Source: Bernardetiaceae bacterium
Lineage (GTDB): Bacteria > Bacteroidota > Bacteroidia > Cytophagales > Thermoflexibacteraceae
Assembly (NCBI GenBank): GCA_025056255.1
Contig: JANWVT010000010.1
Span: forward strand, 6,662-70,661
DNA: 64,000 nucleotides
Direction of reading: 5' to 3'
Shown: positions 60,494 to 63,990 of the stretch, piece after piece
Layout of the letters: each line of letters begins with the position of its first letter
How positions within the stretch are numbered: position 1 is the first letter of the stretch
The notes under the pieces: generated by a model
What the model was told of the DNA's origin: nothing
Database searches by the model: none
The model's input: only the letters and a program-made list of their open reading frames with translations
Translations under genes and position numbers: made by a program

Positions 60494-61540
60494 TTATTGC
60501 TGAGGCTTTTGGGTAACTATTTTTTCTATGGCGTCTAATCTTTTAGCCATTTCGGGTAATTTTTTAAATATGGCAAACGATTTCATGTAATCTTTGACAT
60601 CTATTACCGGAGAACCTACCAGCACTTGGTTCTCTTCTTTGATGCTTTTCATCACACCTGCTTGTGCTCCAATGTTGGTGCGGTTGGCAACTTTAATGTG
60701 CCCTGCAAATCCTACCTGACCGGCTATCATACAGTTTTCGCCAATCTCGGTAGAGCCAGAGATGCCTGTTTGTGAGGCTATTACTGTATTTTTTCCAATG
60801 CGGACATTATGTGCTACTTGAATGAGATTGTCTAATTTAACGCCGCTGTGGATAATGGTTTCGCCCATGGTGGCGCGGTCTATGACAGTGTTGGCGCCAA
60901 TATCTACATTGTCTTCAATGATTACGCTGCCTACTTGGGGCACGGCAATGTAGGTGCCGTCTGCTTGTGGAGCAAAGCCAAAGCCGTCGCTGCCAATTAC
61001 GGCACCGGCATGTATGGTGCAATTTTTTCCAATAGTACAGTTGTGGTATATCTTCACACCCGGGTAGAGAATGGTATTGTCGCCAATAACGGTATTGTCG
61101 CCGATGTGTACTTGTGGATAGACTTTAACGCCGTTGCCAATTTTAACCCCTTGACCAATGTAAGCAAATGCTCCTACGTAAATATCGCTTCCCAGTTGTG
61201 CTGAGGGAGATATGTAGCAAGGCTGCTCAATGCCTACTTTTTTGCTTGTTGTTTGCATCAACTTTTGATATTCATTGAGCAGTTGGCTAAATGCCACGTA
61301 GGCATCATCTACTCGAATAAGGGTTGCGTTGATTTGTTTTTTAGGTACAAAGTCTTTGTTGACGATAATAGCAGCGGCTTTTGTAGTGTAGGCATAGGGC
61401 TCGTAGAGCATATTAGCTAAAAATACAATATCGGTGGCGGTTGCTTCTTGTATTTTGGCTAATCCTTTAATGATGCGCCGGCTATCGCCCTCTATCTCTC
61501 CGTTCAATAATCCGGCTACTTGCTGTACGGTGAATTCCAT
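60494..61540 (-). CDS. lpxD: UDP-3-O-acylglucosamine N-acyltransferase
   Basis: Third step of lipid A synthesis. 348 residues. N-terminal uridine-binding domain (MEFTVQQVAGLLNGEIEGD, LIRVDDAYVAFSQLL), then hexapeptide repeats with GSDGFGFAPQ, the catalytic His in NLIQVAHNVRIGKNT, and GQVGFAGH. Start 3 bp upstream of lpxC/fabZ in the direction of transcription. Confidence 0.95.
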   Translation of the reverse strand: MEFTVQQVAGLLNGEIEGDSRRIIKGLAKIQEATATDIVFLANMLYEPYAYTTKAAAIIVNKDFVPKKQINATLIRVDDAYVAFSQLLNEYQKLMQTTSKKVGIEQPCYISPSAQLGSDIYVGAFAYIGQGVKIGNGVKVYPQVHIGDNTVIGDNTILYPGVKIYHNCTIGKNCTIHAGAVIGSDGFGFAPQADGTYIAVPQVGSVIIEDNVDIGANTVIDRATMGETIIHSGVKLDNLIQVAHNVRIGKNTVIASQTGISGSTEIGENCMIAGQVGFAGHIKVANRTNIGAQAGVMKSIKEENQVLVGSPVIDVKDYMKSFAIFKKLPEMAKRLDAIEKIVTQKPQQ

Positions 61541-61601: not shown

Positions 61602-62831
61602 TTATTTAGGATGGCATAGAAAGTATTTCTTAACAATTTTGGTTAGTGCCTTGATATTGGGCAAATCGGAGGCTTCAGCTACGTCTTTAAGTTCTCCACG
61701 CCGAGTGGCAATTAGGATGCCCTCGTCTTGAGGCTGATAGGCAGCATTAGTGAGTTTGCCATAGGTGACGATATATTCTGCCTCAGCCATACTAATTCCC
61801 CACAAGCTGCTCCACTTTTTGCGCAATGCTTTAATTTCCGCCTCGGGTATTTTTTCATCTCCCATATGCACTTTGTACAGTCGGCGATGCAACAGCATTT
61901 GGCTAAGGCGCGAAAGTATTAGGTCTGGTTCATATTGCCACATTTTGATGCAAGCCCAAATATCGTGGTCATCTAAGGTGGCAAATGCTTCTAAATATTT
62001 TTCATGACTGGTAAAAATCTGCCAGTTTACATTGGTCTCAAAAAAAATGCGCAAGGCAGGGCTTGCAAAAACGGGCTTTCCTTTGGCAAACAAATCTTTT
62101 GCTCGGCGAATTGCCTGAATGAGCATTTGTTCGGTGCTAACGGTTGTTTTATGCAAATATACTTGCCAATACATCAGCCTTCGGGCTACTAAGAAGTTTT
62201 CGATACTGTAAATACCTTTTTCAGCAACTACCAGTCGGTCTTCTACTACGTCGAGCATCTTAATAATGCGTTCTGGGTTGATAGCCCCTTCTTGTACGCC
62301 GGTAAAGAAACTGTCGCGTTGCAAATAGTCTAATCGGTCCATGTCTAGCTGGCTGGAAACCAACTGGTGGAAAAACTTGCGTGGATAGATGCCTTTAAAC
62401 ATCTGTATTGCTAAGGCAAGTGCGCCGTTCATTTCCCGATTGAGCCGCTCAATCATAAGCAAGGAAATATCTTCATGGCATACGTTGTCTAACAGGGCTG
62501 TTTCTAAGGCATGAGAAAACGGTCCGTGTCCAATGTCGTGTAATAGGATTGCTGCTAAGGCTGCCTCATATTCAGCGTCCCAGATATAGTGTCCCTTAAC
62601 GCGCAGGTTGTCTAATGCTAACATCATCAGATGCATGGCTCCCAGCGCATGGTGAAATCGCGTGTGAATAGCGCCGGGATATACTTGTTCGGTAAGCCCC
62701 AGTTGTTTAATCCGACGCAAGCGCTGGAGCCAAGGGTGGTTGATTAGGTCAAATATCAGACGATTGGGAATAGTAATAAATCCGTGTACAGGGTCGTTCA
62801 CAATGGTTTTACGGCGCAGAGGCGTTGTCAT
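61602..62831 (-). CDS. HD-domain hydrolase
   Basis: 409 residues. The opening VNDPVHGFITIPN and QRLRRIKQLGLTEQVYPGAIHTRFHHALG, then LLHDIGHGPFSHALE, give the four-residue H...HD...D site of dGTPase-like HD phosphohydrolases. Homologues beside lpxD are common in Bacteroidota; substrate unknown. Start overlaps the PspA-like gene's stop by four bases and lpxD follows after 61 bp. Confidence 0.88.
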   Translation of the reverse strand: MTTPLRRKTIVNDPVHGFITIPNRLIFDLINHPWLQRLRRIKQLGLTEQVYPGAIHTRFHHALGAMHLMMLALDNLRVKGHYIWDAEYEAALAAILLHDIGHGPFSHALETALLDNVCHEDISLLMIERLNREMNGALALAIQMFKGIYPRKFFHQLVSSQLDMDRLDYLQRDSFFTGVQEGAINPERIIKMLDVVEDRLVVAEKGIYSIENFLVARRLMYWQVYLHKTTVSTEQMLIQAIRRAKDLFAKGKPVFASPALRIFFETNVNWQIFTSHEKYLEAFATLDDHDIWACIKMWQYEPDLILSRLSQMLLHRRLYKVHMGDEKIPEAEIKALRKKWSSLWGISMAEAEYIVTYGKLTNAAYQPQDEGILIATRRGELKDVAEASDLPNIKALTKIVKKYFLCHPK

Positions 62832-63625
62832 GCAAGGTCTTGGTTGTTGTTGAGTCGAGCTTTAATTTTTGCTAATTCGTTGGTAAATGTTGAAAGATTT
62901 TCTGAATCTGTTTTGGAGGAAAGCATCTTCTCACCAGAGGAGAGAGAGGAAGAAAACAGTTGTGGATAGGTTGCAGGATTGATTCCTAAGATGCGGTCTA
63001 TTTCAGCATCTATGGAGGTAGGTTGTTGGTGTAGCTGTATATAAGCCTGAGCCAAGGCTTCTTGCTCGTTTACTTTTTCTTTGAGGCTATCTAAAAAGGT
63101 AAATGTTCCTTGTGCATGTATTTGTGCAAGCCGCTCATGGAGGGCAAGTGTTGTCTGGCTGAGTTGTGCACGTGCTTTGAGGGTTTTTATTTCGGTTTCC
63201 CAGTGGTCTATTTGCATTTTAAGTTGCATGGTCTGCTGCTCTAATTGCTTAACAGTTTGGGCATAGGTTTGCAAACTTTTTTCGCCAGATTGAACGCGAC
63301 GCAGAATTTCATCTTTTTTCATCAGTGCTTGCATTGCCAATCGGTCGGCATCGGCTTGGGAGAGTTGCCCGTCGCGTGCTTTTTCCAAAAGTAAGATAGC
63401 TTTTCGCTCATACTCGTTGGCTACGCGTATTTGGGCGTGGTGTTCGTGTTGGGTGCGGAGGTAAGTGGCTTTCAGCTCTGCCAAACTTTTCAGGCTTTCA
63501 CTGAGGGCAGCTTTTAAATCGCGAATGTTTTGTTCCACAAGCATCACGGGGTCTGCTGCTTGCTCTGTTTGGGTAGTAAACAAAGATTTAATTGCCTGAA
63601 CAATGCGAGTTAAGATGTCATTCAT
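62828..63625 (-). CDS. PspA/IM30-family membrane-stress protein
   Basis: 265 residues. The N-terminal amphipathic helix NDILTRIVQAIKSLF and the following ADPVMLVEQNIRDLKAAL are the PspA/Vipp1 helix-0/helix-1 pattern; the rest to about residue 190 is long coiled coil, then a linker and a short C-terminal helix. PspA-family proteins coat and remodel stressed membranes as ESCRT-III-like polymers. Four-base overlaps on both sides link it to the J-domain and HD genes. Confidence 0.85.
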   Translation of the reverse strand: MNDILTRIVQAIKSLFTTQTEQAADPVMLVEQNIRDLKAALSESLKSLAELKATYLRTQHEHHAQIRVANEYERKAILLLEKARDGQLSQADADRLAMQALMKKDEILRRVQSGEKSLQTYAQTVKQLEQQTMQLKMQIDHWETEIKTLKARAQLSQTTLALHERLAQIHAQGTFTFLDSLKEKVNEQEALAQAYIQLHQQPTSIDAEIDRILGINPATYPQLFSSSLSSGEKMLSSKTDSENLSTFTNELAKIKARLNNNQDLA

Positions 63626-63990
63626 TTGCCAAATTTTTTCTCAAAATAGCTATATGCTGTGTTGATGCGTTGCGTAATTTCTATGGCAGTTTTTTGCTTG
63701 TCTGGCTCGTTTGGGAAGCGGTCGGGATGATATTTTTTGATAAGCGCCTTGTAAGAGGCTTTAATTTGTTCAAAATGTGCACCTGGTTGTACTTCTAAGG
63801 TTTGATAATGCCTTAATTCTTCGGCAGAATATGCAGGAGTAGGTTCTTTGTAAGCACTACTGCTGCGGATTTGTTCCTCATACTGCCTGTATAACTCTTG
63901 CGAGAAGGCGTCGGTTTCTTCGTTTTTCGAAAGAACATTCCCAATGTTGGCACGTATGATTTTGAAAAGACGATTTAACATATCTGGCAT
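63622..63990 (-). CDS. Small J-domain protein with PspA-like N-terminal helix
   Basis: 122 residues. The J-domain fills the C-terminal half (about 60-122): YQTLEVQPGAHFEQIKASYK, HPD at 88-90 (KKYHPDRF), then INTAYSYFEKKFGK. The N-terminus LNRLFKIIRANIGNVLSK is an amphipathic helix strikingly like that of PspA/Vipp1, so the protein may bind the same membrane patches. Its stop overlaps the PspA-like gene by four bases. An alternative ATG is at 63981. Confidence 0.82.
   Translation of the reverse strand: MPDMLNRLFKIIRANIGNVLSKNEETDAFSQELYRQYEEQIRSSSAYKEPTPAYSAEELRHYQTLEVQPGAHFEQIKASYKALIKKYHPDRFPNEPDKQKTAIEITQRINTAYSYFEKKFGK

Follow-up and report, generated by a model that had tools for sequence, protein, structure and literature searches.

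The window analysed here (the whole stretch of 64,000 nucleotides) encodes a small J-protein that begins with an amphipathic helix of the type found at the N-terminus (alpha0) of PspA and Vipp1, and whose gene directly precedes a pspA gene. This J-protein is probably a membrane-targeted DnaK co-chaperone dedicated to PspA, which would be its client. We consider this the best explanation because the J domain and its HPD motif imply the recruitment of DnaK, the alpha0-like helix implies a membrane or the alpha0-lined face of a polymer as the site of action, and the genetic linkage implies PspA as the object, and because precedents exist for VIPP1 and Vipp1.

The features of the locus are given in Table 1. 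As claimed by the sequence-only reading, the genes of the J-protein and of PspA overlap by four bases, the pspA and HD-domain genes likewise overlap by 4 nt, and a gene that we take to be lpxD, a name based on that same reading and on family knowledge, comes next. The overlap between the J-protein gene and pspA (-4) is kept in 3/3 same-genus relatives. Three nucleotides upstream of the J-protein gene, past the end of the window, lies a gene encoding a TamB protein of 1548 residues (PF04357, 5e-47), and beyond tamB there is a presumed menD-like gene, again named from family knowledge. In the window's genus, the pair is found between tamB and HD-lpxD-lpxC/fabZ-lpxA, i.e. in an envelope-building cluster (window:62828-63625, L007:4656-9302). 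The closest named relative in the species scan described below was the Bernardetiaceae MAG SKYG34, the J-protein of which is 58% identical.

Table 1. Features of the J-protein/PspA locus (window coordinates)
Feature	Position	Strand	Basis or remark
J-protein gene, 122 aa	63622..63990	(-)	PspA-alpha0-like N-terminal helix, variable polar linker and C-terminal J domain
Amphipathic N-terminal helix, residues 3-19	63934..63984	(-)	AlphaFold (low pLDDT); alpha0 matrix; shuffle; near-invariant R7
Candidate true start, second ATG	63979..63981	(-)	Start position of same-genus relatives (alignment)
J domain, residues 56-120	63631..63825	(-)	Pfam DnaJ, 5.5e-11; pLDDT ~90 over most
HPD motif, residues 88-90	63721..63729	(-)	Conserved in family alignments
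4-nt overlap ATGA, J stop/pspA start	63622..63625	(-)	
PspA paralogue II (PspA-II), 265 aa, PspA/IM30 bacterial ESCRT-III	62828..63625	(-)	PF04012 and AlphaFold model
HD-domain protein (PF19276/PF01966)	61602..62831	(-)	Pfam; neighbour only in window's genus
lpxD (presumed)	60494..61540	(-)	Neighbour only in window's genus

The sole Pfam match in the J-protein was DnaJ (PF00226, 42.8 bits for a cut-off of 27.8, residues 61-115). Together with the alignments and the J-domain helices seen in the AlphaFold model, this match places the protein among the J-domain proteins. The HPD motif was invariant in alignments A1 and A3, while in A2 the H and D were invariant and the P was present in at least 90% of the sequences. 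Conservation along the protein was highest in HPD and the J-domain core, and the linker of its relatives differed in length and sequence. HPD is needed by J-proteins generally for the stimulation of DnaK; a full-length DnaK is encoded in the window's genome and, judging from its motif, the J-protein should recruit it. The AlphaFold model showed a confident J domain (residues 56-120) preceded by two low-confidence helices, one standing apart at residues 3-19 and another at residues 26-44. No PF04012 match was found in the J-protein with Pfam and the ESCRT-III core (alpha1-alpha5) was absent, the alpha0-like segment being all that it has in common with PspA. The second ATG may be the real start of the protein, because its relatives begin at M(F/L)DR.

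We compared the N-terminus of the J-protein with alpha0 by means of weight matrices built from PspAs that are not linked to a J-protein, using either the canonical type of alpha0 alone or both types. Scores were computed for the N-terminal residues of 49 members of the J-family and, as a background, of 858 unrelated ORFs. The window J-protein reached 15.0 bits with the canonical matrix and 17.6 bits with that of both types, and all background N-termini scored lower (maxima of 6.0 and 5.2 bits, respectively); it also outscored all 4290 internal segments. Every background protein was beaten by 39 of the 49 members with the canonical matrix and by 43 of them with both types. When residues were permuted within the hydrophobic and polar classes only, p was 0.016 for the window protein and ≤ 0.05 in 45/49 members. 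The match to alpha0 thus exceeds mere amphipathicity. Chance or amphipathicity alone was ruled out for most members by the background and these class-preserving shuffles; in L080, L031, L161 and L151, the helix was not distinguishable from a chance or amphipathic resemblance. The hydrophobic moment of the window helix was at the 98th percentile. Thus, matrix, shuffle and moment all agreed with the earlier claim that the protein opens with a PspA/Vipp1-type helix.

The N-terminal pattern of the J-family is roughly (I/L/F)-F-(D/E/S)-R-(I/L)-x-x-(I/V)-(I/L)-(R/K)-(A/S)-x-(I/L/F). It shows the published alpha0 motif (L/I)FDR, and R7 was nearly invariant in the family alignment. The conserved start of alpha0 has been quoted as MGLFDRxxRV in a review (PMC13051332). 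The J-protein helix shares with alpha0 its motif, its extreme N-terminal position, its amphipathicity and its net positive charge, but it is joined to a J domain via a variable linker, without the EDP linker or the ESCRT-III core. Low pLDDT values are expected for an isolated segment of this type, since alpha0 of PspA and Vipp1 is unstructured without lipid (PMC13051332).

PspA-II matched PF04012 with 93.5 bits (cut-off 33.9) and was predicted to adopt the long helical-hairpin fold. Its AlphaFold model matched the Vipp1/PspA structures 8qbs, 6zvr and 7o3x, and 7abk weakly; Pfam and predicted fold both indicate that pspA encodes a true member of the PspA/IM30 family. Its N-terminal helix (residues 2-22) was predicted with low confidence, its alpha0 motif has diverged, AADP stands where the canonical EDP linker would be, and there is an extra C-terminal helix (residues 241-263). 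The helix of the J-protein resembled the canonical alpha0 more than it resembled the diverged alpha0 of the adjacent PspA-II, and most linked PspA-II of the window's family scored below the J-proteins on the alpha0 matrices. Recent copying of the helix from the neighbouring PspA is not favoured, because the copy would be expected to resemble its neighbour more than the canonical alpha0, and the reverse was observed.

The gene pair first noticed in the window was found to be kept elsewhere. We searched 59 genomes, including the window's own, and found the J-protein gene followed by pspA on the same strand in 12/12 other genomes of the same family. Direct pairs were also present in three genomes of family f2, the gaps in these and in the same-family genomes ranging from -4 to 223 nt, and two genomes of family f18 had them as well. 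When 84,980 species were scanned, with one genome per species, named Flammeovirga and Sporocytophaga loci with a direct pair came to light. The pair thus extends to Cytophagales beyond the window's family. The gap amounted to 210-347 nt in L025, L030 and L075, which leaves room for an internal promoter or a small gene. A trio, J - CesT_Tir_1 - PspA, occurred in Bacteroidota families f35 and f48, as well as in two MAGs from outside this phylum, one of Nitrospirales (L093, Nitrospirota) and one of Zetaproteobacteria (L082). Horizontal transfer, ancient linkage or mis-binning would all fit these last two trios. The third arrangement, PspA - DUF4178/PspC-domain protein - helix-J (a J-protein with the alpha0-like helix), was seen in G375 (L159, 2-1854).

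In the species scan, PspA was present in the flanks of 15/21 helix-J loci, versus 0/59 for the other J-protein loci (flanks of up to 8 kb). The bulk of these other J-proteins, mainly from Clostridia and Desulfobulbaceae, were ordinary J-proteins with no PspA neighbour. Similarly, no PspA was found within 1.5 kb of the other J-proteins of the window's genome. Both the fused helix and the J-PspA pair are real and statistically strong, and they are kept in different families and probably in different phyla, as a dedicated PspA co-chaperone would predict. Outside the window's genus, the J-PspA core alone persisted and the remaining neighbours changed. We discarded HD, lpxD and tamB as members of the unit because they are conserved only inside the genus, and the HD gene probably lies outside of it. 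The view of HD-lpxD as a continuation of the pair therefore describes the window correctly, but the association is genus-specific and incidental to the pair. As to the proposal of a PspA co-chaperone itself, its two foundations, the fused helix and the gene pair, withstood the matrices, the shuffles and the linkage analysis, while the HD/lpxD connection fell away.

A second, canonical PspA (PspA-I) is encoded on contig C19 of the window's genome, directly behind its only CesT_Tir_1 gene (G000, L008:6172-7347). Directly upstream of PspA-II, CesT_Tir_1 was absent and the J-protein gene took its place. In the sampled genomes of the order Cytophagales, PspA-I followed CesT in 9/9 cases and every PspA-II followed a J-protein gene. 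In the PspA tree, where several supports were moderate, the copies linked to J grouped together (91/84), Sporocytophaga excepted, and this group was nested within other copies from that order; the PspAs of the trios fell outside. The simplest reading suggested by these findings is an ancestral J-CesT-PspA trio, in which PspA was duplicated, one copy keeping CesT and the other keeping J.

The tree of J-proteins contained a supported clade (98/97) to which the window protein and every PspA-linked J-protein belonged, along with a few J-proteins that lack this linkage. Another group (97/82), from other Bacteroidota, had the same N-terminal helix and no PspA within 1.5 kb. The helix-J architecture is therefore not exclusively tied to pspA operons. 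Several members of this second group (L153, L160, L163, L168 and L177) have as neighbours the genes of a sigma-54 activator (AAA+) and of a protein with a rhodanese domain. Since PspF, a sigma-54 activator, is bound by PspA in E. coli, one may ask whether helix-J contacts the activator in this clade. We also surveyed 392 Bacteroidota genomes, helix-J being assigned from match positions in 40 of them. PspA was present in 38/40 helix-J genomes versus 121/352 others (Fisher p = 2e-14, the genomes not being independent). By family, the figures were 12/12 versus 25/46 (p = 0.002), shared ancestry confounding the co-occurrence. No PspA match was found in the helix-J genomes G028, G335 and G414.

In the mechanism that we envisage, the PspA/Vipp1-type helix would take the J-protein to a negatively charged, stressed membrane or to the alpha0-lined PspA lattice, and the J domain would then bring DnaK-ATP onto PspA. 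Membrane binding, J-PspA contact and DnaK-driven remodelling are the inferred steps of this mechanism, with the outcome that PspA polymers would be disassembled, recycled or re-nucleated. DnaK would thereby play for bacterial ESCRT-III a role similar to that of Vps4 in eukaryotes, or of HSP70B-CDJ2 for chloroplast VIPP1. More tentatively, the J-protein might be an alpha0 mimic that co-assembles with the alpha0 layer of PspA, on the membrane or the polymer, and recruits DnaK there.

The main competing explanation is that the J-protein is fixed to the membrane and works alongside PspA: the helix would anchor the J-protein and DnaK at the damaged membrane for the refolding of other membrane-proximal proteins, and PspA would be a co-expressed co-worker rather than a client. 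The whole clade of helix-J proteins encoded away from pspA speaks for this, as does the fact that alpha0 alone is known to bind membranes and to sense curvature (PMC13051332). The linkage is however specific to PspA, in three arrangements, and helix-J is nearly absent from PspA-less genomes, which makes this explanation rather unlikely. Still less probable is a regulator of the lattice that mimics alpha0 and, by entering or capping PspA polymers or by competition for the membrane, controls assembly largely without DnaK. In most of the family, the alpha0 of the J-protein is nearer to the canonical one than that of the linked PspA-II, as if the function had been divided. Yet the use of DnaK is under selection, since no part of the protein is better conserved than HPD and the J-domain core. 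Chance association, or hitch-hiking inside the larger envelope operon (menD-tamB-J-pspA-HD-lpxD-lpxC/fabZ-lpxA), could be invoked for the window's genus, where tamB, HD and lpxD flank the pair; it is contradicted by the turnover of these neighbours around a lasting J-PspA core beyond the genus, and we regard it as most improbable.

The closest precedent for a PspA-dedicated co-chaperone is found in Chlamydomonas, where CDJ2 is a J-protein dedicated to a client of the PspA/IM30 family, and where HSP70B/CDJ2/CGE1 assembles and disassembles VIPP1 polymers in vitro (PMC10602608). The pair described here differs from this system in being operonic and bacterial, and in that its J-protein bears a PspA-type alpha0; to see in it a bacterial counterpart of CDJ2 is reasonable as an analogy. 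According to one proposal, Vipp1 rings attach to membranes by means of amphipathic alpha0 helices in their lumen (PMC8281802). Bryan et al. 2014 (PMC4297356) described the binding of DnaK2 and DnaK3 to Synechocystis Vipp1, which increased under stress. In bacteria, too, a member of the PspA family can thus be a partner of DnaK; this case differs in that a dedicated J-protein is not known to figure in it. The main text of a 2024 survey of PSP systems (Ravi et al. 2024, PMC11237479) covers CesT-PspA and band-7 operons. Its CesT/Tir-PspA dyad is embedded in the J-CesT-PspA trio, and CesT precedes PspA-I in the window's genome, but that main text describes neither a trio with J nor the J-PspA-II pair, and the word 'DnaJ' does not occur in it. 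No bacterial J-protein paired with PspA was found in the open-licence literature searched.

According to the same survey, in its main text, the control of assembly is unknown for those PspA homologues that lack an associated AAA ATPase (PMC11237479), and a 2026 review states that it is not yet clear how polymerisation and disassembly are controlled, chaperones appearing to be involved (PMC13051332). The probable co-chaperone described here, which is conserved, linked to pspA in an operon and equipped with the membrane tag of PspA itself, is a specific and testable candidate for the disassembly of PspA/Vipp1 polymers in culturable bacteria, and it suggests a bacterial parallel to the chloroplast arrangement of VIPP1, HSP70 and J-protein. 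If the J-protein does act as an alpha0 mimic, DnaK and the helix-tagged J-protein would form a general ATP-driven disassembly machine, equivalent to Vps4, which would serve bacterial ESCRT-III in Bacteroidota and beyond.
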